Shown: positions 3,707 through 50,405 of the stretch, piece after piece
How positions within the stretch are numbered: the stretch's first letter is position 1
Layout of the letters: each line of letters begins with the position of its first letter
Assembly: GCF_020991085.1 (NCBI RefSeq)
Contig: NZ_CP087719.1
Span: 5,069,001 to 5,133,000, forward strand
Length of the DNA: 64,000 nt
Direction: 5' to 3'
Source of the DNA: Roseomonas sp. OT10
GTDB taxonomy: Bacteria; Pseudomonadota; Alphaproteobacteria; Acetobacterales; Acetobacteraceae
Program-made: the position numbers and the translations under genes
Notes under the pieces: generated by a model
Told to the model about the DNA's origin: nothing
What the model saw: only the letters and a program-made list of their open reading frames with translations
Databases searched by the model: none

Positions 3707-4129
3707 TCAGACGGTGATGCGCAGCCGCTGCTGCCCGGCCTTGCCGGCGCCGCGATAGGCGATGACCTCCAGCTCGACCTTGTAGATGTCGCTCGCGAGC
3801 GGCGTGCAGAGCGTGGTCGAGGTCGGGTCGATGCCCTGGAAGGCGCGGGCGAAGGCCTCGCCGACCTTGTCCTTGTCCTCGCGGTTGGGGATGTGCTTCA
3901 CCACCTTCACGATGTCGGCCATGGTCGCGCCGACCGAGGCCAGGGCGCGCTCGATGTTCTGCAGCGCCTTCGTGCATTGCTCGCCCGCATCGGGCGAGAT
4001 CTGACGGGTCGCGTAGTCGATGCCGGCGGTGTTGGACACGAAGATCAGGTCGCCCACCGCCACGATGCGCGAGTAGTTCTGGGAATCCTCGAACTTGCTG
4101 CCGGACTTGACCTTGACGACGTCGACCAT
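3707..4129 (-). CDS. RidA family protein (enamine/imine deaminase)
   Basis: A 140-residue protein of the YjgF/YER057c/UK114 family. These trimeric cytosolic enzymes hydrolyse reactive enamine and imine intermediates made by PLP or FAD enzymes. The conserved pattern is visible: Ser-Asn-Thr-Ala-Gly-Ile near residue 32, the stretch QNIERALASVGATMADIVKV in the middle, and a C-terminal segment with Leu-Glu-Val-Ile-Ala-Tyr-Arg. The family's catalytic-site Arg is usually carried in an I-E-x-x-A-Y/V-A-x-R context; here it appears as EVIAYRGAG. Linked genes encode an FAD-dependent amino-acid-type oxidase and a hydantoinase, both plausible sources of imines, so a clean-up role in the same pathway makes sense. 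Confidence 0.88.
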   Translation of the reverse strand: MVDVVKVKSGSKFEDSQNYSRIVAVGDLIFVSNTAGIDYATRQISPDAGEQCTKALQNIERALASVGATMADIVKVVKHIPNREDKDKVGEAFARAFQGIDPTSTTLCTPLASDIYKVELEVIAYRGAGKAGQQRLRITV

Positions 4130-4214: not shown

Positions 4215-5200
4215 CACGCCGCCGCTTCGGCGATCTCCTCCGCCCGGATGCAGGCGACGCGCTGCCCGTTCCCGCCGAAGGGACGCAGCTCCGGCACCGT
4301 CTCCGCGCAGGCGTCGCGCGCATGGGCGCAGCGGGTGCGGAAGACGCAGCCCGATGGCGGGTTGGCCGGGCTGGGCGGGTCGCCCGGCAGCAGGATGCGC
4401 GCCGTCCGCCGCGACGGGTCGAGCATCGGCGTCGCCGAGATCAGCGCCCGGCTGTAGGGATGCGCCGGCCGGGCGAAGACCTGGCGCGACGGTCCCTCCT
4501 CCATCACCCGGCCGAGATACATCACCACCACCCGGTCGCAGAGGCTGGCCACCACCGGCAGGTCGTGGCTGATGAACAGCATCGCGAGCGACAGCTCGCG
4601 CCGCAGCTCGGCCAGCAGTTGCAGCACCTGGGCCTGGATGGAGACGTCCAGCGCCGAGACCGGCTCGTCCAGCACCAGGAATTCGGGCTGCGTGGCCAGG
4701 GCGCGCGCGATGCCGATGCGCTGCCGCTGCCCGCCCGAGAACTCGTGCGGGAAGCGCTGCCCGTGCGCCGGATCGAGCCCCACCTGCGCCAGCAGCGCCG
4801 CCACCCGCGCCGGGCGCTCGGCCGCGGGCGCCAGCCCGTGGATCGCGAGGCCGTCGGCGATCTGCTCGCCCACCCGCCGGCGCGGGTCGAGGCTGCCGAA
4901 CGGGTCCTGGAACACCAGCCCCATCCGCCGCCGCAGCCGCCGCCACTCCGTGCCGGAGATCCCCTCCATGGCCTGGCCGTCGAAGCGCATGGTGCCGCCC
5001 GTCGCCGGCAGCAGGCCCAGCAGCAGGCGGCCGAGCGTGCTCTTGCCCGAGCCGCTCTCGCCCACCACCCCCAGCGCCTCGCCGCGCGCCACGCTCACGT
5101 CGATCCGCCGCACCGCTTGCACCGGCTTGCCGCGCCGCAGCATGCCGCGCGCCGGGAAGGTCTTGGCGAGCTCCCTGGCCTCGATCAGCGCCTCGCTCAT
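4214..5200 (-). CDS. Dipeptide/oligopeptide ABC transporter ATP-binding protein (DppF/OppF type)
   Basis: A 328-residue cytoplasmic ATPase that energises a peptide-type importer. Walker A (GESGSGKST) is at residues 47-55, with a Q-loop (VFQDP), the ABC signature LSGGQ-like FSGGQRQRIGIARAL, Walker B VLDEP and the switch His in FISHD. The C-terminal extension with spaced cysteines (Cys-Val-Phe-Arg-Thr-Arg-Cys) is the oligopeptide-transporter C-terminal motif. The frame runs further upstream, but the ATG at 5200 starts exactly at the family's N-terminus. The gap to the preceding transporter gene holds a copy of the multi-hairpin repeat, so this ATPase is separated from its partner genes by a structured element. 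Confidence 0.92.
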   Translation of the reverse strand: MSEALIEARELAKTFPARGMLRRGKPVQAVRRIDVSVARGEALGVVGESGSGKSTLGRLLLGLLPATGGTMRFDGQAMEGISGTEWRRLRRRMGLVFQDPFGSLDPRRRVGEQIADGLAIHGLAPAAERPARVAALLAQVGLDPAHGQRFPHEFSGGQRQRIGIARALATQPEFLVLDEPVSALDVSIQAQVLQLLAELRRELSLAMLFISHDLPVVASLCDRVVVMYLGRVMEEGPSRQVFARPAHPYSRALISATPMLDPSRRTARILLPGDPPSPANPPSGCVFRTRCAHARDACAETVPELRPFGGNGQRVACIRAEEIAEAAA

Positions 5201-26590: not shown

Positions 26591-28471
26591 TCAGATGGCC
26601 ACCCGGACGCCGAGCTCGACCACCCGATCGCTGGGGATACGGAAAAACTCGGTCGCCGGAACGGAGTTGCGGCTCATCACCCGGAACAGCCACTGCTGCC
26701 ACGCCGCCATCTTCGGCACCGTGGCCTGCACCAGCGTCTCCCGTCCCAGGAAGTAGCTGGCCTGCATCGGGTTGAAGCCCTCGCCCAGATCCTTCAGCGC
26801 CTCCAGGTCGCGCGGGATGTTCGGGCTCTCCAGGAAGCCGTAGCGCAGCAGCACGCGGTAGATGCCCGGGGCCAGCTGGGTCGCCTCGCTGCGCTCGGAC
26901 ACCTGCGGCACGTCCTCGTTCAGCACGGTGACGAAGATGATCCGCTCGTGCAGCACCTTGTTGTGCTTCAGGTTGTGCAGCAGCGCGTTGGGCACGTAGT
27001 CCGCCTGGCCGGTCATGAAGACGGCGATGCCCGGCACCCGGATGGTGCGGGACTGCGGCAGCCGCGCCAGGAAGGACTTCAGCGGCAGGCTGTCCTGGCG
27101 GAAGCGGCTCATCAGCAGCTCGCGCCCACGCCGCCATGTCACCATCAGCACGAACATCGCCACGCCCAGCACCAGCGGCACCCAGCCGCCATCGGGGATC
27201 TTGAGCACGTTGGAGATGAAGAAGGCGAGGTCGAGCAGGAAGAGCGGCACGAAGACGGCCAGCACCAGCGCCAGGGGCCAGCCGAAGCTGCGCCGGAACA
27301 CCAGGCCGGCGAGGCAGGAGGTGGCGAGGAAGGTGCCCGTCACGGCGATGCCGTAGGCAGCGGCGAGGCTGTCGGAATTGCGGAAGGTCAGGACCAGGAT
27401 CACCACGCCGATCAGCAGGGCGAAGTTGACCTGGGGCAGGTAGATCTGCCCCTCCTCCGTCTCGCTGGTGTGATGCACCACCAGCCGCGGCAGCAGCCCC
27501 ATCTGCACGCACTGCCGCGCGATGGAATAGGCGCCGGAGATCATGGCCTGGCTGGCGATGATGGTGGCGAAGGTCGCCAGCACCACGAGTGGCAGCCGCA
27601 TCCAGCCGGGCGCGAGCAGGTAGAAGGGGTTGTCGAGCGCAGCGATGTCGCTCAGCACCAGCGCCCCCTGGCCCAGGTAGTTCAGCAGCAGGCAGGGCAG
27701 GACGAAGGTCATCCAGGCGAGCTGGATGGGACGCTTCCCGAAATGACCCATGTCGGCATAGAGCGCCTCGGCCCCGGTGATCGCCAGCACGACCGAGCCG
27801 AGCGCGATGAAGGCCGCCAGCCTGTAGGTGATGCAGAAGCGGATGGCATGGTGCGGCGACAGCGCCGCCAGCACCCCCGGCTCGCGCAGGATCTCCACCA
27901 GCCCCAGCAGGCCGATGGCGGCGAACCACAGCACGGTGACGGGGCCGAAGATCCGGCCGACCGCCCCGGTGCCGCGGTACTGCACCAGGAAGAGCGCGAC
28001 CAGGATGGCCAGGGAGAGAGGGGTCACCGCCTGGTCGAAGACCGGCGAGATCAGCTTCAGCCCCTCGACCGCCGAGAGGACGGAGATGGCCGGGGTGATG
28101 ATGCCGTCGCCGAAGAACAGGCAGGCGCCGGCGATGCCGACCATGACGACGAGGTTGCGTCCCCGCGGCGTGGCGGTGACACGATGGGCCAGCGCCATCA
28201 GCGCCAGGATGCCGCCCTCGCCGCGATTGTCGGCGCGCAGCACGAGGAGGACGTATTTCCCCGTGACGACGATGAAGAGCGACCAGACGATCAGGCTGAG
28301 GACGCCAAGCACCTCCCAGCGCTCCAGCCCATCCGAGGCGAAGTGCAGCAGGGCGGCACGGAGCGCGTAGAGGGGGCTGGTGCCGATGTCGCCATAGACG
28401 ACCCCCAGGACGGCGAGGAGCAGCGGCAGGGTGAGGGGGCGTCCCCTGCTGTGCGACATGTCTGAGGTCAC
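26591..28471 (-). CDS. kup: Kup family low-affinity potassium uptake protein
   Basis: A 626-residue potassium:proton symporter of the KUP/HAK/KT family. The N-terminal signature [17 protein letters not shown] begins near residue 21, about 12 hydrophobic helices follow to roughly residue 430, and the last 150-200 residues form the cytosolic domain. Length matches the family (about 620-630). The ATG at 28471 or the one four codons later may be used. The transporter supports constitutive K+ uptake, particularly under acid or hyperosmotic conditions. No kdp or trk genes lie nearby. It is divergent from repeat copy C. Confidence 0.95.
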
Positions 28472-38344: not shown

Positions 38345-40185
38345 CGCGGCAGCTCCGCCAGGATGTCGTGGAACAGCCGGGCGGGCAGGGTGCCGCCGCG
38401 CACGTCGTCCATCGGGGTGGCGTCGTCGTTGCCCAGCCAGACGCCGATCACCAACCGGCCGGAGAAGCCGATGAACCAGGCGTCGCGCGAATCCTGGGTG
38501 GTGCCGGTCTTGCCGCCCACCCCGCGCCCCGCCACGGCGGCGGCACGGCCCGTGCCGCGCGCCACCACCGCCTCCAGCGCCCGGCGCACGGACTGGGCGT
38601 CGTCGCCCTGGATCGCCCGGGCCGGCGCCGGTGCCGGCAGGGAGCGCAGGCTCCGCCCCTCCCGCAGCGCGGCCAGCCCGAAGGGCTCCACCCGCAGGCC
38701 GCCATTGGCGAAGGCGGCATAGGCCGTCGCCAGCTCCAGCAGCGTCGTCTGCCCCGTGCCCAGCGCCAGAGTGGCGTCGTCCGGCAGGGCACCGGCCAGC
38801 CCCAGCCGGCGGGCCACGGCGGTGGCGGCGCGCACCCCGCCGCCGCGCAGCAGGGTGCGGACGGCGGCGGTGTTGACGCTGTGGGCCATCATCTCCTCCA
38901 GCGTGATCGCCCCGCGCTCCCGCCAGCCGCCATTGCCCGGCGACCAGCCGCCCAGGCTCAGCGGCGCGTCGGAGACGGTGTCGGAGAGCGACATCCCCGA
39001 TTCCAGCGCGGCGAGCAGGACGAAGGGCTTGAAGGCCGATCCGGGCTGGCGGTGGGCGTCGGTGACGCGGTTGAACTGGCTGGTGCGGTAGTCGCCGCCG
39101 CCGACCATCGCCCGCACCGCGCCGGTGGGGGCGTCGAGGATCACGACCGCGCCCTCGCCCACCCGCGCCGCCGCCCCCGGCCCGGCGAGCAGCGCGGCGA
39201 GCTTCGCCTCCGCCACCCCCTGCATCCGCAGGTCGAGCGTGGTGCGCAGCACCAGGTCGTCGGCGCCGGGGAAGCGCTCCGACAGGTCGTCCTGCACCCA
39301 GTCGGCGAACCAGCCGGAGCCGCGCGAGCGGCGCGCGGACAGGGTGATGCGCTCCGCCTCGGCCTGGGCCTGGGTGGAGGGGATCGCCCCGACCTCGACC
39401 ATGGCGTCCAGCACCTCCCGCGCGCGGTGGACCGCCCCGTCCGGGTTGGCGCGCGGGTTGAGGCGCGACGGCGCCTTGGGCAGCCCGGCCAGCATCGCCG
39501 CCTGCCACAGCGTCACCTGCCGGGCGGAGACGCCGAAATACTGCCGCGCCGCCGCGTCCACCCCATAGGCGCCGGCGCCGAGGTAGACGCGGTTCAGGTA
39601 GATCTCCAGCAGCTCCGTCTTGCTGAAGCGACGCTCCAGCCACAGCGCCATCACCAGCTCCTGTGCCTTGCGCCGGAAGGAGCGGTCCGGGGACAGGAAC
39701 AGGTTCTTGGCGAGCTGCTGCGTGAGCGTCGAGCCGCCCTGCACCACCCGGCCGGAGCGCAGGTTGGTCCAGGCCGCCCGCGCCAGCCCGATCGGGTCCA
39801 GCCCGGGATGCGAGAGGAAGCGCCGGTCCTCGATCGCCATCAGCGCGGCGGGCAGGGTGCGCGGCATGTCGCGCAGCCGCAGCGTGTCGCCGTAGAGGTC
39901 GCCGCTGGTGGCAATGGTCTGCCCGCCCGTGGCCTCCAGCACCAGGGACGGGCGGCGCGTGGCGGCGAGCGCCCGCTCCGGCGGCGGCAGGTCCCAGACC
40001 AGCAGGAGGAACATCCCGGCCAGGGCGAGCGTGCCCCAGATCCCCAGCAGCAGCAGCCGGCGCAGCCAGCGCCCCAGCCGTGCGGGCCGGGGGGCGTGCT
40101 TCGGGGCGGACCGGGCCGCGGCGCCGGCCGGCCGTCGGGCCGCGGGCGGCGCCTGGGTCGCGGCGGGGGCAGGGGGGCGGCGCAT
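38341..40185 (-). CDS. Class A penicillin-binding protein (transglycosylase/transpeptidase, PBP1 type)
   Basis: A 614-residue bifunctional peptidoglycan synthase. A Pro/Ala/Arg-rich cytosolic tail of about 40 residues precedes one membrane anchor (about 42-65). The glycosyltransferase-51 domain shows EDRRFLSHPG and GGSTLTQQLAKN. The transpeptidase domain has the nucleophile Ser in GSAFKP, then SVN, and KTGTTQ near residue 570. The ATG at 40185 is preferred over the much longer upstream frame, because that extension lacks homology and would run into the divergent mscS promoter. It is the first gene of a two-gene unit with the DHp-like protein. Confidence 0.93.
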   Translation of the reverse strand: MRRPPAPAATQAPPAARRPAGAAARSAPKHAPRPARLGRWLRRLLLLGIWGTLALAGMFLLLVWDLPPPERALAATRRPSLVLEATGGQTIATSGDLYGDTLRLRDMPRTLPAALMAIEDRRFLSHPGLDPIGLARAAWTNLRSGRVVQGGSTLTQQLAKNLFLSPDRSFRRKAQELVMALWLERRFSKTELLEIYLNRVYLGAGAYGVDAAARQYFGVSARQVTLWQAAMLAGLPKAPSRLNPRANPDGAVHRAREVLDAMVEVGAIPSTQAQAEAERITLSARRSRGSGWFADWVQDDLSERFPGADDLVLRTTLDLRMQGVAEAKLAALLAGPGAAARVGEGAVVILDAPTGAVRAMVGGGDYRTSQFNRVTDAHRQPGSAFKPFVLLAALESGMSLSDTVSDAPLSLGGWSPGNGGWRERGAITLEEMMAHSVNTAAVRTLLRGGGVRAATAVARRLGLAGALPDDATLALGTGQTTLLELATAYAAFANGGLRVEPFGLAALREGRSLRSLPAPAPARAIQGDDAQSVRRALEAVVARGTGRAAAVAGRGVGGKTGTTQDSRDAWFIGFSGRLVIGVWLGNDDATPMDDVRGGTLPARLFHDILAELPR

Positions 40186-40299
40186 GGGTGGCCGATTATG
40201 GGGCCGTCGCGGGGAAGGGGACAGGGCGGGCCGGCGCAGGAGGGCACGGACCCTTTCGCCGGCTGCGGCGTTGTGGCCCCACTCCCTGGGGAAGACGCC

Positions 40300-41286
40300 A
40301 TGTTCGACGATGCGCTGGGCCGCCTCCAGGCCCTCGGGGCCGCCGCCGTGGCCCTGGTGCCGGGCCTGCTGATGGGGCTCCTGGTCTTCGGGCTGGGGAT
40401 GCTCCTGGTACGGGGCGTGCGGGCGGCGGTCACGCGCGCCGCCGCGCTGCGCGAGGCCTCGGCCGGCTCGGCCGCCGTGCTCGGCCGCATCGCCGGCGGG
40501 GTGGCGACGCTGGTGGTGTTCCTGGTCTCCGCCTCGATCGCCTTTCCCTCCGTCTCGGCGGCCGACCTGTTCAACCTGCTGGGAATCGGCGGCGTGGCCA
40601 TCGGCTTCGCCTTCCGCGACGTGCTGCAGAACCTCCTCGCCGGCGTGCTGATCCTGCTGACCCGCCCCTTCCGCATCGGCGACCAGATCCGCCAGGGCAG
40701 CCTGGAGGGCACGGTCGAGGACATCTGGGTCCGCGCCACGGTGCTGCGCACCTACGACAACCGCCGCATCCTGATCCCCAACGCCTCGCTCTTCACCGAC
40801 AAGATCGAGGTCATCACCGCCTATGAGCGGCGGCGGCTGCACTTCCCGCTGACCATCGGCAATGCGGACGACATCGCCCGGGCGCGCCAGGTGGTGGTGG
40901 AGGCGCTGCGGGGCACGCCCGGCGTCCTGGCCGACCCGCCGCCCGAGGCGCTGGTGACCGGGCTGGGCAGCGCCGGGGTGGACATGGCGGCGCGTTTCTG
41001 GATCGACCCGCCGCGGCGGCGGGAGGCGGTGGACGCGCTGGACGGGGCCATCGAGGCGGTGAAGGACGCGCTGACCGAGGCGGGGATCGACCTGCCCTAT
41101 CCCACCTCGCAAGTCCTGTTCCACGACCAGACGGAGGAGACGGACGGCGACCGCGCCCGGCAGCGCGAGGGCTGGCCCGCCAGGGGGCGCCCCGTCCCCC
41201 GCTCCCGCTGGCAGGTCCGGCAGGAGGAGGAGCGGCCGCGGCCCGCCCCCGCGCGGGACCCCGGCGCACCGGAACCGCGCCGGTGA
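40300..41286 (+). CDS. MscS family mechanosensitive ion channel
   Basis: A 328-residue small-conductance mechanosensitive channel. Three N-terminal helices end in the pore helix; the motif LLGIGGVAIGFAFRDVLQNL followed by RPFRIGDQI is diagnostic. The beta domain and the C-terminal alpha/beta domain follow, and the last 40 residues form a charged, Pro/Arg-rich tail longer than in E. coli MscS (286 residues). The real start is the ATG at 40300; the long upstream frame crosses a repeat and the opposite-strand PBP gene. The stop overlaps the GTG of the DUF2254 gene, so both membrane proteins are co-translated. Confidence 0.93.
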   Translation: MFDDALGRLQALGAAAVALVPGLLMGLLVFGLGMLLVRGVRAAVTRAAALREASAGSAAVLGRIAGGVATLVVFLVSASIAFPSVSAADLFNLLGIGGVAIGFAFRDVLQNLLAGVLILLTRPFRIGDQIRQGSLEGTVEDIWVRATVLRTYDNRRILIPNASLFTDKIEVITAYERRRLHFPLTIGNADDIARARQVVVEALRGTPGVLADPPPEALVTGLGSAGVDMAARFWIDPPRRREAVDALDGAIEAVKDALTEAGIDLPYPTSQVLFHDQTEETDGDRARQREGWPARGRPVPRSRWQVRQEEERPRPAPARDPGAPEPRR

Positions 41287-42626
41287 GGGGCCGCCTGACC
41301 GGCTGGCTGGAAGCGCTGGGCGACCTGTTCTGGCTCCGCCCCGCCTTCCTCGTGGTGCTGGGCGTGGCGCTGGGCGAGGCCCTGGTCTGGGCGGAGCGCG
41401 CCGGCTTCACGGAGAGCTGGGTCAGCGGCGGCTGGATCTATGCCGGCGGAGAGGCGGGCGCGCGGGCGCTGCTGAGCGCCGTCGCCTCCTCGGCCATCGG
41501 CGTCGCCGGCACGGTGTTCTCCATCACCGTGGCCGCGCTTTCGCTCGCCTCGGGGCAGATGGGGCCGCGCCTGCTGCGCAACTTCACCCGCGACCCCGGC
41601 AACCAGATCGTGCTGGGCACCTTCCTCGGCACCTTCGCCTGCGCCCTGGTGCTGCTGCGCACCGTCCGCTCGGTGGAGGAGGTGGCCTTCGTGCCGCATC
41701 TGGGCGTCACCGCGGCGCTCGCCCTGGCGCTGCTCTGCGTCGCCGCCCTCGTCTGGTTCGTCCACCACGTCGCCAACAGCATCAACGTCGACACGGTGAT
41801 CGCCCTGGTCCATGCCGAGCTGGCCGGGGCCATCGCGACGCTGGAGGAGGGCCGCGACGCGCCCACCGGGGAGGCGCCCGAGGCTGCCCGGGCCGGCGCC
41901 GCGCCCCGGCCCGGCCCGGACGCGGAGGGCGCCCGGGGGCGGGTCCTGCGCTTCGCCGGCGGCGGCTACCTGCGCGCGCTGGACGACGCGGCGCTGGCCG
42001 ACTGGGCGGCCGGACAGGGCGCGCGGCTGCGGCTGGACGTGCGCCCGGGCGACTACTTGCTGCCGGGCGCCGCCTTCGGCACGCTCTCCCCGCCGGATGC
42101 GGATGCCGGTGCCGCGGAGGCCGCCTTCGCCGCGGCCGCCAGCCTGGGCGAGCGGCAGGCCGCCGCGCAGGACCTGGAGTTCGCCGTGCGCCAGCTCGTC
42201 GAGGTGGCGGTGCGCGCCCTGTCGCCCGGCATCAACGACCCCTTCACCGCCGTGGCGGTGCTGGACCGGCTGGGCGCGTCGCTCTGCACCCTCGCCGGCC
42301 GCCGCCTGCCCGATCCCGTGCTGCGCCGCGATGGCCGGGCGGTGCTGTCGCGCCATGTCACCGACTATGACGGGCTGTGCGACACCATGTTCCACATGAT
42401 CCGCCAGAGCGCCGGCGGCTCGGCCACGGTGCTGATCCGGCTGGTGGAGATCCTGCGCCAGGTGGAGGGGGTGGAGACGGACCCCCGCCGCCACGCCGCC
42501 CTGCGCCGCCACGTCGCCCTCGCCCTGGCCACGGGGCGCGCGACGGTGGAGGACGCAGCCGGGCTGGCCGACCTGGAGGCGCGCGCGGCCGGGGAGGGCC
42601 TCCGCGGGCGTCAGGCGGCGACGTAG
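41283..42626 (+). CDS. DUF2254 domain-containing membrane protein
   Basis: A 447-residue integral membrane protein with four N-terminal helices. The stretch AIGVAGTVFSITVAALSLAS followed by GPRLLRNFTRDPGNQIVLG is the DUF2254 signature. The soluble C-terminal half includes LSPGINDPFTAVAVLDRLG, another family landmark. The biochemical role is not known. It is coupled to the mscS-type gene by GTGA overlap, so a role in envelope or osmotic homeostasis is a fair guess only. Its last 16 bases overlap the convergent TetR gene. Confidence 0.88.
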   Translation: MRGRLTGWLEALGDLFWLRPAFLVVLGVALGEALVWAERAGFTESWVSGGWIYAGGEAGARALLSAVASSAIGVAGTVFSITVAALSLASGQMGPRLLRNFTRDPGNQIVLGTFLGTFACALVLLRTVRSVEEVAFVPHLGVTAALALALLCVAALVWFVHHVANSINVDTVIALVHAELAGAIATLEEGRDAPTGEAPEAARAGAAPRPGPDAEGARGRVLRFAGGGYLRALDDAALADWAAGQGARLRLDVRPGDYLLPGAAFGTLSPPDADAGAAEAAFAAAASLGERQAAAQDLEFAVRQLVEVAVRALSPGINDPFTAVAVLDRLGASLCTLAGRRLPDPVLRRDGRAVLSRHVTDYDGLCDTMFHMIRQSAGGSATVLIRLVEILRQVEGVETDPRRHAALRRHVALALATGRATVEDAAGLADLEARAAGEGLRGRQAAT

Positions 42627-43288
42627 CGCTCCACCATCTCCAGCACGCCCTCGCGGCGCCGGGCCTGGGCCGCCGCATCCCCCGGGTCGAGCCCGAAGAG
42701 GCGGGAGAAGGTGGGGCGGTTGGAGACGGCAAAGAAGCACAGCGCGCTGATCTGCCAGTGCAGTTCCAGCGGGTCGATGCCCGGCCGGAACACGCCTTGG
42801 GCGACGCCGCGGCCGTAGAAGCCGCGGATCTCCTCGACCATCGCCGTGCTGAGCTGGCGGATGGCGGTCAGGTCGCCGAGGAAGGCGCCCTGCTGGACGT
42901 TCTCCATCGCCACCAGCCGCACGAAGGTCTCGTTGCGGTGGTTGAAGTCGAAGGTGAAGCCGACCAGCGCGCGCAGCGCGTCGAGCGGCGCGAGGCGGTT
43001 GAGGCCGAGCTGGCTCTCCTGCGTCCGGATGCGCCGGTACTCAGCCTCCAGCACGGCCTGGTAGAGGCCCTCCTTGCTGCCGAAATGATAGTAGATCACG
43101 CCCTTGCTGGTGCGGGTCCGGGCGGTGATCTCGTCGATCCGCGCCCCCGACAGCCCGCCGCGCGCGAACTCCTCCGTGGCGACCGCCAGGATGCCCTGGC
43201 GGGTCCGCTCCGGATCATGGGTCCGCGACGCCCGGGGTCCCGGTGCGCGGTCCCCGCGTGGCGTGGCGGTCGCGGCGCCGTCCTGCAT
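42611..43288 (-). CDS. TetR family transcriptional regulator
   Basis: A 225-residue repressor. The helix-turn-helix is at about residues 27-75, with ILAVATEEFARGGLSGARID and TSKGVIYYHFGSKEGLYQAV, typical of TetR/AcrR proteins. The C-terminal domain resembles the TetR_C group found next to transport genes. Start at the ATG at 43288; the longer frame begins with a Pro/Gly-rich stretch. It is divergent from an MHS transporter gene, and the spacer holds inverted repeats that are the probable operators. Ligand unknown, most likely the transporter's substrate. Confidence 0.9.
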   Translation of the reverse strand: MQDGAATATPRGDRAPGPRASRTHDPERTRQGILAVATEEFARGGLSGARIDEITARTRTSKGVIYYHFGSKEGLYQAVLEAEYRRIRTQESQLGLNRLAPLDALRALVGFTFDFNHRNETFVRLVAMENVQQGAFLGDLTAIRQLSTAMVEEIRGFYGRGVAQGVFRPGIDPLELHWQISALCFFAVSNRPTFSRLFGLDPGDAAAQARRREGVLEMVERYVAA

Positions 43289-43394
43289 GCCTGTGCGGTC
43301 TCCTTCCCGGCGGGGCCCTCCGCCCGGACGGGGCGGGGGCCGCGGCCCGGCATCCGGCGGGCCCCAGGGGTCCATTGTAGATTGTGATTGACCG

Positions 43395-43413
43395 AACTGA
43401 CCAGTCCGTCTAA
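43395..43413. promoter_or_regulatory. Possible second TetR operator
   Basis: The stretch with AACTGACCAGTCCGTCT resembles TetR-type half-sites (ACTGAC, CAGTC) and lies about 20 bases left of a perfect inverted repeat with the same AACTGAC word. Sites in pairs are common for this family. Imperfect symmetry keeps confidence low. Confidence 0.4.
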
Positions 43414-43430
43414 CAGATACAAGAGTTATG

Positions 43431-43450
43431 AACTGACAGGTTCGTCAGTT
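43431..43450. promoter_or_regulatory. TetR operator (inverted repeat)
   Basis: A perfect inverted repeat with 7-base arms AACTGAC and GTCAGTT and a six-base spacer lies in the spacer between the divergent tetR and MHS transporter genes, the usual place for control of both. It sits 100 bases before the transporter ATG, in the most A+T-rich part of the spacer. Confidence 0.65.
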
Positions 43451-43549
43451 ATCCGTTCTGTCATGAATCGCCCTGGTTCCGGCAACGCCGCCCCACCCAT
43501 GCCGGGAACAGGCCAGCAAACCCGCGAGACGCGGCCATGGAGGAAGCGA

Positions 43550-44884
43550 ATGGACGTTGCCGGTACCGCGCCGCTCGGCGCCACGGAGGCCCATGCAGGG
43601 CCATCGCCGCGAAAGGCGGCCATCGCCGCCTGGATCGGCAGCGCGCTGGAATATTATGACTTCTTCATCTACGGCAGCGCCGCGGCACTGGTCTTCGGCA
43701 AGATCTTCTTCCCGGCGGACAACCCCGCCCTGGGGACGCTGCTCTCCTTCGGCACCTTCGGCGTGGCCTATGTCGCCCGGCCGCTGGGCTCGTTCGTGAT
43801 GGGGCACATCGGCGACAAGTTCGGCCGCAAGGCCGTGCTGATGCTGACCCTGTTCGGGATGGGCGCCTGCACCTTCCTGATCGGCCTGCTGCCCACCTAT
43901 CACCAGATCGGCGTCTGGGCCCCCATCCTGCTGGTGCTGCTGCGCGTCTGCCAGGGCCTCGCCGTCTCGGGCGAGCAGTCCGGGGCGACCTCGATGACCG
44001 TCGAGCACGCGCCGGAGAACCGGCGGGCCTTCTTCAGCAGCTTCACCCTGGCCGGCACCCAGGGCGGGCTGATCCTGGCCACCGCCGTCTTCCTGCCGAT
44101 CTCCACCCTGTCGGACGAGGCGCTGCTGAGCTGGGGCTGGCGGATTCCCTTCCTGTTCAGCGTGGCGGTGATGGCCGTGGCCTGGTGGATCCGGCGCAGC
44201 CTGCCCGAGACCCCCGCCTTCGAGGCGGAGCAGGAGCACCACGCGGTGCCCGTCGCCCCGCTGAAGCTGCTGGCGCGCCACTACGTGCCCGACGTGATGA
44301 AGGTGGTCTTCGCCGCGCTGACCTCCGTCATCAGCACGCTGGCCACCGTCTATGCGCTGAGCTACGGCGTCGCGACCGTCGGCCTGCCGCGCTCGGCGAT
44401 GCTGTGGATGCAGATCCTGGCCAACGTCGTGGCGCTGGGCGCCATCCCCGCCTGGGCGCTGCTGGCCGACCGGATCGGGCGCAAGCCGGTCTTCGTCATC
44501 GGCGCGGCGGGCAGCGCCATCCTGATCTGGCCCTTCATCTGGTCGATCACCCAGGCCAACCTGCCGATGGTCTTCCTGTTCGGCATCCTGATGTCCGGCG
44601 TGATCTACAGCGCCTACAGCGGCTCCGCTTTCGCGATGTTCAGCGAGCAGTTCGGCACCAAGGTCCGCCTGTCCGGCATGGCCATCGGCACCCAGTTCGG
44701 CTTCGCCCTGGGCGGCTTCGCGCCAACCATCGCCGCGGCGCTGGCCGGGCCGAACCTGGGCAACTGGGTCCCGGTGGCGGTCTTCGGCAGCGCGGCCGCG
44801 GGACTGGCGGCGCTGTCCGCCTTGAGCATGCGCGAGACCTACCAGGTGCCGCTGGACCGGCTGGGGCGGCCGGAGGCGGGCTGA
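43550..44884 (+). CDS. MFS transporter, metabolite:H+ symporter (MHS) family
   Basis: A 444-residue symporter with 12 predicted helices. The signature ALEYYDFFIYGSAAALVFGK and the next-loop GDKFGRKAVL are strong MHS markers (shikimate, dicarboxylate, proline/betaine carriers). The ATG at 43550 is preferred because a good ribosome site (GGAGGAAG) lies directly upstream; an earlier in-frame ATG has none. It is divergent from the TetR gene and probably controlled by it. A very strong hairpin follows the stop. This is the last gene before the lower-GC defence island. Confidence 0.9.
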   Translation: MDVAGTAPLGATEAHAGPSPRKAAIAAWIGSALEYYDFFIYGSAAALVFGKIFFPADNPALGTLLSFGTFGVAYVARPLGSFVMGHIGDKFGRKAVLMLTLFGMGACTFLIGLLPTYHQIGVWAPILLVLLRVCQGLAVSGEQSGATSMTVEHAPENRRAFFSSFTLAGTQGGLILATAVFLPISTLSDEALLSWGWRIPFLFSVAVMAVAWWIRRSLPETPAFEAEQEHHAVPVAPLKLLARHYVPDVMKVVFAALTSVISTLATVYALSYGVATVGLPRSAMLWMQILANVVALGAIPAWALLADRIGRKPVFVIGAAGSAILIWPFIWSITQANLPMVFLFGILMSGVIYSAYSGSAFAMFSEQFGTKVRLSGMAIGTQFGFALGGFAPTIAAALAGPNLGNWVPVAVFGSAAAGLAALSALSMRETYQVPLDRLGRPEAG

Positions 44885-44889
44885 GGGGA

Positions 44890-44924
44890 GGCACGGCCGG
44901 CCGGGGAACCCGGCCGGCCGTGCC
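44890..44924 (+). terminator. Strong hairpin terminator after the MHS transporter gene
   Basis: A perfect stem with 16-base arms (44890-44905 and 44909-44924) and a GAA loop begins six bases after the stop. It is the strongest single hairpin in this part of the window. It also marks the left border of the native high-GC DNA; from about 44990 to 45216 the base composition falls and no gene or repeat is recognisable. Confidence 0.7.
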
Positions 44925-45216
44925 ACATGGACGGGCATCGGTCTCAGGACCGTCCGGGCGATGCCCAAGTGGCCTAGCGTAGAGGCTGGGCAGCGTCCGA
45001 TACGCGCCCTTGCCAGTCATTCATATGCAGGTCTTACCTATCGGAAAGCAGACATGACAGCTTGGCAGTTTAGGGCGAAGTTGGGCGGATTACCAAGTCG
45101 GCTAGTCGCGAGGTACTGATCGGTATACCTCTAAAAGATGGTTTTCAGAGACAATCAAGGTTGACACTCAGGGATGCCCTGTCAGCAACTGAATAATACG
45201 AACTTTCAATTCATCC

Positions 45217-47350
45217 TCAAAGGCTCGCCTGGATTTCCTCAACAAGAGCCGCCTCAAAACGGCTGAGCCGCAAACGACTGACCTCTAGCTGGCGCAGCGC
45301 TGCAAGAACGGCATCGAGATCGCTGTTGGAGGGCAGGACTGGCTCCAACCGCGCGACGATCTGCAGAGGAAGACCATACTCATCGAGCGCCGATAACGCT
45401 GGGGGCAGCATTAAATTTTCGACCCTGACCGCAAAGGGTGCGTAGGCCCCCTGGGGAAGGCCGAGGCGACCGAAAACCTCCGCCTGGATTCGCTCTAGCG
45501 CAGTGAGAGCGCGGGGGAAGTTGAACGAGGCCCAGTTCCGCAGAAACTCCAGCGCGTTTTCAACCCGGTCGCTCGGATCCGCAGGCGCGCGCGGGCCCGA
45601 TGCTTGGGCCTGGGTCTTGATGAACCCCGACGCCCCAAGCTGTCGCAGTTTCGTCAGCAAGAGCGCAAGCTGGCGGTCATTGCGGACTACGTCCCGCCCC
45701 GCGCCAGCAAGAAGGGTGTCGAATAGAAGCTCGCATACCTTGTAAATTTGATCGTTCGACGGCTCTCCCCGCCACGACAACGCCGGATGCAGCTCGCGCG
45801 CGTGTAGGCGGATGTAGCGGGCTAGGTCGATCTGCTGTTGCGGGTCTACGTGTGCGTTGGCACGAATCGTCTCGATGCTGAGCTCAGGTTGCCCCTTCAG
45901 TTTGTTGACGCGGCGTAGTCCTTCTCCTCCGAGATCCTCCTCATCGAGTTGCACAAGAAGGCCGTCCGTTGCAGTGTCAGTTTGACTAAAAGCAGGAAAG
46001 TCGACGTCGAGCAGATTAGTCTGTGGTGGCGGGTGAAAGAGATGGACCGTGCCGACAAAATGCCGGAACATCCGACCCGATCGTCCCTGAATATTGCGGT
46101 AGGTGAAGTAGTCGAACGGCTTCTTCGAAATCTTATTGTCGTAAATAACGACGTGCTTCGCAGCGGTGTTGACGCCCTCAATCAGGGTCGACGTACACAC
46201 AAGAAATTTCAACGCACCGCTATTGAAGAGACGTACTTGCAGCTGTGCAAGCGCACGTGGCAGCCGGCCGTGATGAATACCAATGCCGTGCGCCAACGCA
46301 CGCGCCACGATCCAGTCAGGATGGAAATTGCTGGCGACCCAGTCCACCACTTCGGCTAAAGTTGGCTTTGCTGGACTGATGTGCCGCTCAACCATCAATT
46401 GCGCCACCCGGCGCACGCTGCCCGGTGACTGACAATAAATCAGAGTGGAGCCGTCTAGTTCCTTTGTTAGGCGCACTAGCGCCTCACGGGCTCCGCCTGT
46501 CAAATCGACGCGCCGTACATCGCTCGCCACCGTCACGAAGTCGCTGACAATCAGGCGAGCCTCGAAGCGATCCTGGAAGTCAGTCGGGATGGCGCGGATG
46601 TTGGGGCCCAGAAGATAGAACTGCCGAGCGGTCTTCAGCAGCTTATAGAAAGCGTGGTTCAGAATGGCAGCACGGTCCGCGTTGCCTCCACTTGGGTCAA
46701 GTTTGTAGAATTCGTCGATTACGAACAGGTCAAGATAGTCGAGGTCCGCCCGCTCGATCACTCGCTCCTGGGTTAGAACATATATCGTGCCACGTTCCAG
46801 ATCGGCTGGCTGCGATGCGTGGGTTACGATCTTGTAGCTGTCTGAGAAGCGCGAAAGGCGTTTCCGCGTCTCGTCGATCAGCGCGATCGTTGGTACCACC
46901 AGCGCGATGCGCTTGTACTTGCCCGAAGCGATGAGCGCGTCGACTACAAGACTTTTGCCGAAGCTGGTCGGCGCACTGAGTATTACGTTCTCGCCATCGA
47001 CAAGCCTCCAGTAGACTTGGGCTTGAACCCGGTGAAAAACCATTCCGCCGTCAGCCAGCCGCCCCTCCGGCCGGTGAAATTCGAACGCTAAGCGGTCCCG
47101 GGCGGATAGCTCATTCGGCTCAGCATAAGGATAGAGTCCGGTCTCCCGCAGCAAGGCATTGAGCAGCCCCGAGCAGCTGGCGAAGTCATCACGGTGCTCC
47201 AGTGCGCGGATGAGGAGCAACTGCGCCGCTGCGTCTTCCTGCTTCTGGCCGAGTTGGTGAGCAATCGACTGGAGGATGGCGAAAGCTTGCGCAGGCGTTC
47301 GGGATGGGGCATCGAGCGCGTCCCGCGTCCCGCGTCTCGTCGAGAGTCAT
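45217..47350 (-). CDS. hamB: Hachiman anti-phage helicase HamB (frameshifted at its 5' end)
   Basis: A superfamily 2 DNA helicase, the effector partner of the Hachiman defence system. The Walker A motif reads SAPTSFGKS, the motif II is VIDEFYKL and the motif VI is NIQGRSGRMFR. The uninterrupted frame runs from 47346 to 45217 but contains no ATG at its start; the first usable codon is a TTG at 47220. The natural start is the ATG at 47350 overlapping the hamA stop. Reading from that ATG leaves frame because of a seven-base tandem repeat (GGGACGC on this strand; 47318-47338). Removing one unit restores a smooth 708-residue reading frame. The gene is lower in GC than its surroundings. Either an inactive or phase-off allele. 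Confidence 0.82.
47318..47338. repeat. Seven-base tandem repeat inside hamB
   Basis: Two identical units of GCGTCCC (plus strand, 47318-47324 and 47325-47331) and a third with one change (GCGTCTC, 47332-47338). The unit length of seven is not a multiple of three, so gain or loss of one unit switches the reading frame of hamB after its ninth codon. Confidence 0.85.
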
Positions 47351-48197
47351 GTCATCATCCCCTTGAGCTTCGCATCAAAGCGCTCCAGCAGCTTCGCCTT
47401 ATTATTCATTGGAAGCAGGATCAGGATGATTTTGATCTCGGCAGGCAGACTTGCGTTACAAAATCGCTGGTGATGCTTCTCAAACTCTGCCGTTATTGCT
47501 GTCTCGTAGGTGGCGTTAGTACGTCTGTGGACGGCAAGAGTGGCGCTGTCATAGGTGAGAAGCACGGGGATGCAGAGCCGCTCGAACACCTCGTCCATAG
47601 TGACATTGCCGGCCAGAAGTCGCTCGAGCGCGGGACGATGCGGGTGGTCTTGGTCGACCTTGCGCCAGATCGCAGCGAACTCGGATCGAAGGTAGGGAAT
47701 GCGAGTGTGCTGATTCAGCTCATCGACAATGTCCCGTACGGCACTTGCTACGTCCTGGTAGAGCTTCACCTCTCCCAGCCAGAGTTCCAGGCCGTCCGCA
47801 GCCTCCACAACGTGAACGGCGTCAAAACCTTTCACCGTGTCATTAGGGGCATCCTTAAAGAACACCTTACTGATCGCCGGGACTGAACCGAACTCCTGAC
47901 GGATGATGGCGTGGAGCAGTATCTCACCAACCTCGCCTCGTGTAGTGTACTTGGCGGATTTGTAGATCGTCTCGGCTGCCGCGCGGAGCGCGCGCGGGCG
48001 TTGACGCCGCTCAGCGCATTGAACTCCCGCTCGTTGAGCGCGAACTCGGGCAGCCATTCGATGATATGCTCAGCCAACTGGTCATAGCGCCACTCGCCCG
48101 CCTCGAATCCCGCACAGACGCCCGCGAGCCCAGGCACGTCTTCTACGCGCTTCACAATGGCGCGCAGCAGAGCCGGTGGCATAGAGGGACTAGGCAT
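47347..48197 (-). pseudogene. hamA: Hachiman nuclease subunit HamA (DUF1837), frameshifted
   Basis: The nuclease/sensor partner of HamB. The N-terminal 69 or so residues are in one frame (from the ATG at 48197: RVEDVPGLAGVCAGFEAGEW), and the rest in another. The second part has the DUF1837 hallmarks: RGEVGEILLHAIIRQEF, FKDAPNDTVKGFDAVHV and LWLGEVKLYQD, which contain the Asp and Glu-x-Lys residues of the nuclease site. The switch falls in an alternating GC run (47988-47996). Deleting one CG unit there gives an unbroken 282-residue protein of normal family length. The stop overlaps the hamB ATG. As it stands, a full HamA cannot be made without frameshifting. Confidence 0.82.
47988..47996. repeat. 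Alternating GC dinucleotide run at the hamA frameshift
   Basis: Nine bases of alternating G and C lie exactly where the two hamA frames meet. Loss of two bases (or gain of one) restores the frame. Such runs are prone both to replication slippage and to sequencing error. Confidence 0.75.
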
Positions 48198-48203
48198 CCC
48201 GGA

Positions 48204-48530
48204 TTACCGCAACTGTGAACTATCGCCTGCTTGCGGAGCCGCGATACGATGCGAATACGAAAAATCTTCTTCGGTCCCATCAGTGCGAACGAGTTGGAAG
48301 CACTGCGTTCCGAGCTCTGCGCTCATCACCTCGAAGTGGTCGATCCCGATGCCGACTTTCTTGGCGTGCGCGGCCTGCCTCACAAGGAGCGTAGCCAAGT
48401 CGGCGTCATCAATATCGGAAGCGCGCTGCTTGGGCCGGTAACGGCTCAACATTTCTCGGAAAAACTCCGTCGCCTCTTTCTGACTTTTAAACATCCTTAT
48501 CTTAAGCACTGCCGACTTTCTTCTTGGCAT
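48204..48530 (-). CDS. DUF3223 (DCL family) protein upstream of Hachiman genes
   Basis: A 108-residue protein whose centre matches the DUF3223/DCL family: FKSQKEATEFFREMLSRYRP at the start, then an acidic Asp-Ile-Asp-Asp-Ala-Asp segment, IGIDHFEVMSAELGTQCF and DGTEEDFSYSHRIA. Plant members are linked to rRNA or plastid RNA metabolism; bacterial ones often occur in mobile or defence DNA, with unknown action. The ATG at 48530 is chosen; a longer version from 48587 is possible. The gene ends six bases before hamA, so it is probably the first gene of the Hachiman operon and may be an accessory component. Confidence 0.7.
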   Translation of the reverse strand: MPRRKSAVLKIRMFKSQKEATEFFREMLSRYRPKQRASDIDDADLATLLVRQAAHAKKVGIGIDHFEVMSAELGTQCFQLVRTDGTEEDFSYSHRIAAPQAGDSSQLR

Positions 48531-48605
48531 GGCGTGTCCCACTCTTCGTGAACCCATGCAGAAAAAGAACTGCCGGCCTTGCGCCATCGCGATGCCTAGC
48601 TCCCG

Positions 48606-48743
48606 ATGAATCCGTCACCCTCATCTTACAGTTCTGAACCTTTGCCGAAAACTGTTGAGCTGTGCACGCTTTTCCAGGAGATGAGGGACGTGATCGGCAC
48701 CCTGGATGGCATCATCAACGAGGAGAGCTTTCCCGACCACTAG
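48606..48743 (+). other. Short open frame in a degraded region
   Basis: A 45-codon frame (MNPSPSSYSSEPLPKTVELC at the start) lies in the gene-poor 48.6-49.15 kb stretch. It has no recognised domain, and no convincing ribosome site. The rest of this 560-base stretch has only chance-looking frames; on the minus strand about 48770-48910 a stretch reading [14 protein letters not shown] resembles a recombinase-like fragment, but it has no start or length to support a gene. I regard the stretch as decayed island edge. Confidence 0.2.
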
Positions 48744-49151
48744 CTCCCGATCTCATCGGCCTATTTCTGTGAGTGCCACATCCCGCAACGAGCCGCGTTC
48801 ACGCCGTTGCCAGCAACTGGCCTAGCTTGGCGCGAACTCGTTCTTCTCGCATCATTTGGCGCATAAGCCGCTGTAAATTCAGGAGCCTCCGGCCTGCGGT
48901 GCCGCTTTCATTCCATGTTCGCAATGCTCACTTCATCCGCCTACCTTACCACTTCGGTGGAGAATGTCCGCCTTCTCGGGTTTCCTCCTCGGGGGAGAAT
49001 GTGTCGCTATCGGCCAGAGCCAGACCTAGCAGCACCGAGTATGAGCTTCAGAGAAGTTGGGAGCAAAGTCCACAAGCCTTTAGGGGCCCTGCTCTCGGTC
49101 GAGGGGGAGCCAGCGCCTTTTCCGGCACCGCCTAACCCACCGTATCCTACA

Positions 49152-50405
49152 TCATCCCACCCGCGCCCCGAGCAGCAGGCGGTTCATCGGCTCCATCGTC
49201 GCCCGCAGCGCGGCCCAGTCGCGCACCGCCTGCTCCCGCGACGCGCCGGCGGCCACTACCTCGTCCAGGATCGCCCCCAGGCTGCGCCGGCCATCCACCC
49301 GCGACAGCAGCCCGGCGGCGAGGCGTGGGAGGGGGAGCTGGAGGCGGATGCCGTCGAAGGTGACGACCAGGGTCCCGTCGCGCGGCAGCCCCCGTGCCAG
49401 GGCCGGGCCGTCCAGCTCTCGCAGCACGGGGACCGAGTCCGGATCGTCCCAGCGCGGCTCGGGGGCGGTGTCGCGGGTCGCGTAGGCGATGTGCACGCCC
49501 ATGTTGCCGGTCATCGCCTCGGCCAGGGCGGCGCGGTCGATCAGGCCCATCCCGGCGGTGCGCTCGCGCAGGCGCGGGTCGGGGAGGTAGCGGTCCGGGT
49601 CGTAGCGCACCGGCTCCACCAGGCAGCGCAGGGTCAGGCCGGCCCCCGCGATCAGGCCGGCGAGCTGGGGGACGGTATAGGCGACGTCGCGCGGGTTCAG
49701 CAGCAGGTCGTAGAGCCCGGCATCCCCGCCCTCCAGGTGGTCGGTGATCCAGGGGTTGCGGCGCAGCCAGGCGGTCTCCGGCAGGTGCCGCCAGAGGCGC
49801 TTCGCGACCTCCACCCGCTTCGCCGGCGCCTCCTCGGGCGGGGTCAGGCGGCGCAGGGCGTCCTGGAGCATGTAGACGCCCGTGCGGCCATGCGGGGCAT
49901 AGACCATCAGCCCGATCCCGCCGCCCGGGGCGAGGCTGGCGGCGAGCGCGCGCAGCCCGGCGGCCGGGTCGGGCAGGTGGTGCAGCACGCCGCAGCAGTC
50001 GATGTAGTCGAACAGGCCGAGCGCCGGGTCCGGCAGATCGAGGATCGAGCCCTCCACGAAGCGGATGTTGCCCAGGGACCGCTTCGCCGCCCGGGCCTCC
50101 GCCACCTTGCGGGCGGCGGCGGAGCGGTCGAGCCAGACCACCTCTCCCGGGCGGCCGAGGCTGGCCATCTGCTGCGCCAGCATGATCGTGCCGTCCCCCG
50201 ACCCGCCCCCCGCCACCAGGGCGCGGAGCGGTTGCGTGGCGGGCCGGCGGGCGCCGAAGACCCAGTGATCCACCTCCCGCAGGTGGGAGGGGCTGCCGAC
50301 GATCAGCCGCCTCGCCTCCTCCGCCGGGTCGCGGGCCGGGTAGGGGTAGCGGTCGTATTGCGCGGCGAGCTGCCGGTCCCGGTCGTCCTGCATGGCCGGC
50401 TGCAT
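49152..50405 (-). CDS. Class I SAM-dependent methyltransferase
   Basis: A 417-residue protein. The SAM-binding motif I is [11 protein letters not shown] near residue 66, the acidic ribose-binding residue follows in VVWLDRS, and motif IV-like [20 protein letters not shown] comes later. The C-terminal third, with [21 protein letters not shown], looks like an extra PqqD-like or helical domain found in many bacterial methyltransferases of this type. It has no membrane segments. Start may be either of two ATGs (50405 or 50393). It stands alone on the minus strand. The acceptor molecule is unknown. Confidence 0.82.

Follow-up and report, generated by a model that had tools for sequence, protein, structure and literature searches.

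Frame breaks in both genes of a Hachiman operon in Roseomonas sp. OT10

Hachiman-type systems and the Roseomonas locus

The described systems closest to the locus studied here are as follows. In HamA2/HamB2 (PADLOC PDLC00195/PDLC00201), which has a short HamB of about 710 amino acid residues, a HamA with a DUF1837 domain is followed by the helicase HamB, whose start overlaps the end of hamA. For the E. coli complex, PMC12278908 describes HamA residues 30–63 as stacking on the N-terminal helical bundle of HamB. The same paper reports that ectopic Hachiman is mildly toxic and proposes AbpAB (8zue) as a Hachiman variant. A switch built on seven-base units is found in neuO of E. coli K1, for which PMC9659370 describes heptanucleotide phase variation in the coding region.

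The window, that is, the whole 64-kb stretch of Roseomonas sp. OT10 DNA analysed, contains hamAB on the minus strand with the HamA2/HamB2 layout (Table 1). A HamA with the DUF1837 domain lies beside a HamB helicase, and the original hamB start, the ATG at 47350, shares bases with the hamA stop (ATGA). The HamA2 and HamB2 profiles match strongly, and the same-size HamA1/HamB1 profiles score about equally. The difference from HamA2/HamB2 is that both frames of the window's operon are broken, as follows: hamA lies in two frames, and the ATG at 47350 no longer enters the helicase frame. Among solved structures, the best relative of the window HamB is AbpB (E 4.3e-104). The C-terminus of AbpA weakly matches the C-terminal part of the window HamA (E 7.6e-6) and was the sole phmmer match to that part; phmmer with the N-terminal part gave nothing relevant. 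AbpA has an additional N-terminal nuclease domain, whereas the window HamA consists of DUF1837 alone. In our view, the locus is probably a horizontally acquired Hachiman operon of the short type, HamA2/HamB2-like, in which two separate frame breaks have recently abolished function.

The operon sits in a segment of about 9 kb that three genomes of the same genus lack at this place; there, the flanking blocks are about 200 bases apart. Besides hamAB, the segment carries genes for DUF3223, DUF2254, TetR, and MFS proteins (Pfam). The G+C content of the DUF2254/TetR/MFS part (40.1–45.0 kb) is 73%, and that of hamAB plus the DUF3223 gene is 54–59%; hamAB alone has 0.59 versus 0.71 for the window. 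A search for repeats at the flanks of the insert gave nothing convincing. The DUF3223 gene ends just ahead of the hamA start at 48197. DUF3223-like stretches also occur near hamAB in four other loci (L073, L075, L080, and L091) of the 95 searched, and in L075 (2347–2586) and L091 (2289–2597) they are upstream of hamA.

Table 1. Coordinates of the hamAB features and of the surrounding insert in the window.
Feature	Position	Strand	Basis or remark
Stretch of about 9 kb, absent at the same place in three same-genus genomes	40092..49162		Adjacent alignment blocks in L119, L123, L134
hamB helicase frame	45217..47346	-	PADLOC HamB2, E 1.2e-228
Early-ending frame of 53 codons that starts at the original hamB ATG	47189..47350	-	Stop at 47189-47191
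Period-7 tandem tract, about 2.9 units	47317..47336		Site of hamB frame loss; sister copy 7 bases shorter
C-terminal part of hamA with the DUF1837 nuclease domain; frame differs from that of the N-terminal part	47347..47985	-	Pfam, PADLOC
CG-rich stretch with the hamA frame change inside	47986..47996	-	11 bases versus 4 residues in relatives
N-terminal part of hamA (67 residues), with a frame of its own	47997..48197	-	PADLOC HamA2 profile
DUF3223 gene, open frame, 127 aa, directly upstream of hamA	48204..48587	-	Pfam PF11523, E 2.4e-15

The hamB start and the seven-base tract

The earlier note had reported that the hamB ATG overlaps the hamA stop and that the frame it opens breaks off at a seven-base tandem, and our analysis bears this out: the frame from that ATG closes after a short run of codons (Table 1). 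The tandem units GCGTCCC, GCGTCCC, and GCGTCTC occupy 47318–47338, a 21-base string with a single occurrence in the 5.69-Mb genome. The exact period-7 run has 13 matches, more than any other run of that period in the window, where 0.03 runs of at least 12 matches would be expected (30 replicates of first-order Markov sequences). Heptamers in just two units are nothing unusual, with six runs of at least seven matches observed versus 9.2 expected in the window. Short tandem arrays are also common there, as Tandem Repeats Finder gave 99 rows with a score of at least 30.

The helicase frame comes straight after the hamA stop, in phase with the C-terminal part of hamA, and its residues 2–665 match positions 43–716 of the 721 in the PADLOC HamB2 profile. 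From 47346, where it opens, it has no ATG, GTG, or TTG before the TTG at 47220; the near-cognate codons ahead of that TTG are ATC at 47277 and ATT at 47265.

One relative allows the junction to be compared at the DNA level, so that the number of units can be compared once. Among all the DNA searches, the only alignable junction was that of the Roseomonas mucosa plasmid pTT14-3 (CP099474.1, L114), one of two records matched in the plasmid collection. This sister copy is about 75% identical over 60% of the query, from the C-terminal part of hamA into hamB, and the alignment continues across the hamA stop and the hamB start, leaving a net seven-base gap. The ATGA overlap is common to both copies. 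The pTT14-3 junction differs in being open and seven bases shorter than that of the window; it reads as a single frame, MTPEETLRALKAPSR... No relative with the same tract was found among 15 same-genus genomes, 397 family genomes (both sets including the genome of the window), and the plasmid collection. Programmed frameshifting was considered and rejected because the pTT14-3 copy needs none.

In more distant relatives, a start codon for hamB also lies near the end of hamA. The nearest in-frame ATG, GTG, or TTG, a mechanical assignment that does not prove a start, is at most 24 bases away from the hamA stop in 78 of 79 loci (L035–L113), ranging from 16 bases before the end of the hamA stop codon to 24 after it; the exception is L070. 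In the 78 loci, 20 to 48 residues lie ahead of the residue aligned with the window TTG at 47220, and therefore the N-terminus that the window lacks belongs to the family.

We propose that replication slippage most likely added one unit to the GC-rich heptamer tract, which would have thrown hamB out of frame by about codon ten. By coupled translation from hamA, the cell would then make a dead-end peptide of 53 residues in place of the helicase. These comparisons also bear on whether the operon could still work by recoding or alternative starts, with HamB made from the TTG at 47220, HamA from the ATG at 48057, or a HamA–HamB fusion by read-through of the TGA. Both long frames are open with their conserved residues intact, and the helicase frame lies in phase right behind the hamA stop, which favours such a reading. 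However, by eye no ribosome-binding site lies at the usual spacing before 47220 or 48057, and the missing part of hamB is present in 78 of 79 relatives. In addition, hamB frames in relatives that open only past the hamA stop (L073, L091, and L097, for example) each have a start codon there, and the published complex places such missing parts at the HamA–HamB interface (PMC12278908). We regard continued function by this route as extremely improbable.

The hamA frame

The break in hamA was absent from the earlier note. The ORF at 47832–48197 matches positions 3–67 of the PADLOC HamA2 profile (E 1.6e-18), and the ORF at 47347–48057 matches Pfam HamA (PF08878; E 1.9e-47) and positions 67–279 of the PADLOC profile (E 2.4e-86). 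These two parts are out of phase across the CG-rich stretch, which corresponds to four residues in all 14 aligned relatives. The parts share one ORF in every relative in which both were matched; several relatives gave no match to the N-terminal part at the cut-off used. The C-terminal part has a possible start, the ATG at 48057, which is out of frame with the true N-terminus.

A small change in the CG-rich run, separate from that in hamB, would have broken hamA around codon 67. The product would be either an N-terminal fragment or, from the internal start, a nuclease domain without residues 1–67. Because residues 30–63 of E. coli HamA stack on the N-terminal bundle of HamB, each break probably takes away part of the surface where the partners meet, provided that the residue numbering corresponds to that of the E. 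coli protein.

Given that the change sits in a CG-rich run, the hamA break by itself could be a sequencing error, and the reading in which it is an assembly or base-calling artefact, with hamB alone truly broken, has to be weighed. As a baseline, five same-genus genomes were sampled at 16 stretches, and the 212 ORFs taken from these were compared with the window, keeping only matches above 45% identity. Fifty-six of them matched, covering 25,601 bases in 25 intervals, and within these comparable intervals of the window no match was split between frames, which argues against an error. Two of the 56 matches were flagged for stops, in both cases upstream of the start of the ORF at 26591–28471. 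Against this sample, two breaks within the 3 kb of hamAB stand out. We therefore consider an error in hamA unlikely.

The state of hamA also bears on what the tract in hamB can do. The earlier note had offered two explanations for the tract, a fresh duplication or a slipped-strand on/off switch. The duplication fits what was found, since the window carries an extra unit relative to the sister copy in a gene that is otherwise well conserved. The switch finds no support: hamA is broken too, and the tract has only about three units. Nor do the relatives fit the possibility, also raised there, that all of them carry three units and a conserved alternative start, as 78 of 79 start hamB near the hamA stop and the sister copy lacks the extra unit.

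Reversible phase variation by heptamer slippage would place the frame of hamB under the control of unit number, as in neuO, where seven-base units in the coding region likewise set the frame. Consistent with this, the tract lies within the first hamB codons, is the longest period-7 run in the window, and differs by seven bases from the sister copy, and the remainder of the genes is normally constrained. Unlike the expectation for a switch in which the tract alone decides the state of an otherwise intact operon, however, hamA is separately broken upstream, and so the hamB heptamer alone cannot switch the operon on; hamA would have to switch at its own CG-rich run or be open in the other state. 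The window also differs from neuO in its short tract and in the break in a second gene, and against a switch stand as well the absence of the extra unit from the sister copy and the junctions of 78 of 79 relatives, where hamB has a start codon in frame. Taken together, phase variation at the heptamer is very unlikely. Similarly improbable is a switch with two sites, the heptamer in hamB and the CG-rich run in hamA, each varying in length at an appreciable rate, by which a costly defence that senses DNA damage would be silent in most cells and return in rare ones. If it were true, the parallel damage in the two nearest relatives described below would point to strong selection for silencing this branch of Hachiman. 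A search of the literature on phase variation and repeats in Hachiman and phage defence gave no phase-variable Hachiman, and we know of none; if the tract varied, it would be the first known to us.

Related copies, constraint, and a second Hachiman

The two nearest relatives of the window's operon are damaged by other means. In pTT14-3, which differs from the window in this respect, the damage lies beside insertion sequences: the 5′ part of hamA is absent and the remainder adjoins an IS21-family transposase gene, and the 3′ part of hamB is absent, the gene ending at an IS3-family transposase region. The copy of Paracoccus S-4012 (L034) is truncated. Only hamB residues 230–667 were matched there, and no hamA match was found within the 9.3-kb locus searched. 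Among 125 Paracoccus genomes, relatives were found in that same genome and as two copies 38% identical, and a viral scan gave two distant relatives, 45% and 37% identical. As a separate observation, hamA homology in pTT14-3 (L114, about position 4000) starts at window position 47978, which is 8–18 bases from the zone of the window's hamA break (to 47996). A break hot spot common to the two copies was considered; having no explanation for one, we treat the proximity as coincidence.

Breaks are rarer farther away. In the 79 more distant loci, a set that leaves out L034 for want of a hamA match and in which L093 runs off the contig end, hamB is clearly broken in two (L068 and L070) and two are unsettled (L087 and L095). 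The check for stops covered 85 loci and flagged four (L068, L070, L075, and L099); L075 and L099 were dropped as broken genes, since in each the stop precedes the opening of the frame that bears the start. The hamB frame of L087 stops near residue 610 of the 722 in the query, where about 100 bases of sequence remain, and in L095 only the last third of hamA was matched, beginning 95 bases from the sequence start.

Both clear cases deserve a short description. In L068, from a metagenome-assembled genome of Opitutaceae, a stop codon at 4463–4465 interrupts hamB. In L070 (3808–4032), from Capnocytophaga leadbetteri, reading from the hamB ATG reaches a stop after 74 codons by hand count. The helicase frame drops out near codon 65 at a short tandem of four-base units, which makes this locus an independent instance of hamB breaking at a tandem repeat. 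One of 19 other Capnocytophaga genomes has a relative, 34% identical.

Apart from the two breaks, the window's genes are conserved. Window hamB compared with the Paracoccus copy gives dN 0.069 and dS 0.996 over 438 codons, and thus dN/dS 0.069. Compared with pTT14-3 it gives dN 0.091 and dS 2.28 over 348 codons, where the ratio of about 0.04 is soft as dS is near saturation; the hamA comparison with pTT14-3 yields no ratio, its synonymous sites being saturated. Of the columns that relatives conserve to at least 90%, the window deviates in three of 97 for HamB and in none of 20 for HamA, and for HamB, 37% of 83 relatives deviate as often as the window or more. Judged by these comparisons, hamAB look to have been normally constrained until recently, and therefore both breaks look recent.

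The same genome carries a second HamA/HamB pair 183 kb away (L153, 3518–7799; about 5.2995–5.3038 Mb), in which both frames are open. Its HamA has 259 residues (PADLOC E 7.7e-117) and its HamB 1172, and the latter matches HamB of E. coli ECOR31 (8vx9) over residues 1–1169. The two HamB proteins of the genome are distantly alike, with 31% identity over query residues 256–392. An AbiEii-like gene lies upstream of this second locus. We infer that the second locus may make the broken hamAB dispensable.

With breaks in both genes, the operon is most simply read as an acquired, redundant defence that decayed recently. It is tempting to propose that the need for the operon was reduced, by its fitness cost or by redundancy. 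Two points count against decay: a gene that is often switched back on should likewise keep its conserved residues intact, and the small change in the CG-rich run of hamA is a possible base-calling error.

Profile searches call a Hachiman here with strong scores though neither gene reads through. Under the decay reading, the locus would offer a small, concrete case in which a costly, self-toxic defence was lost by different routes in its nearest copies, namely, frame breaks, insertion sequences, and truncation, while another Hachiman with open frames was kept in the same genome.
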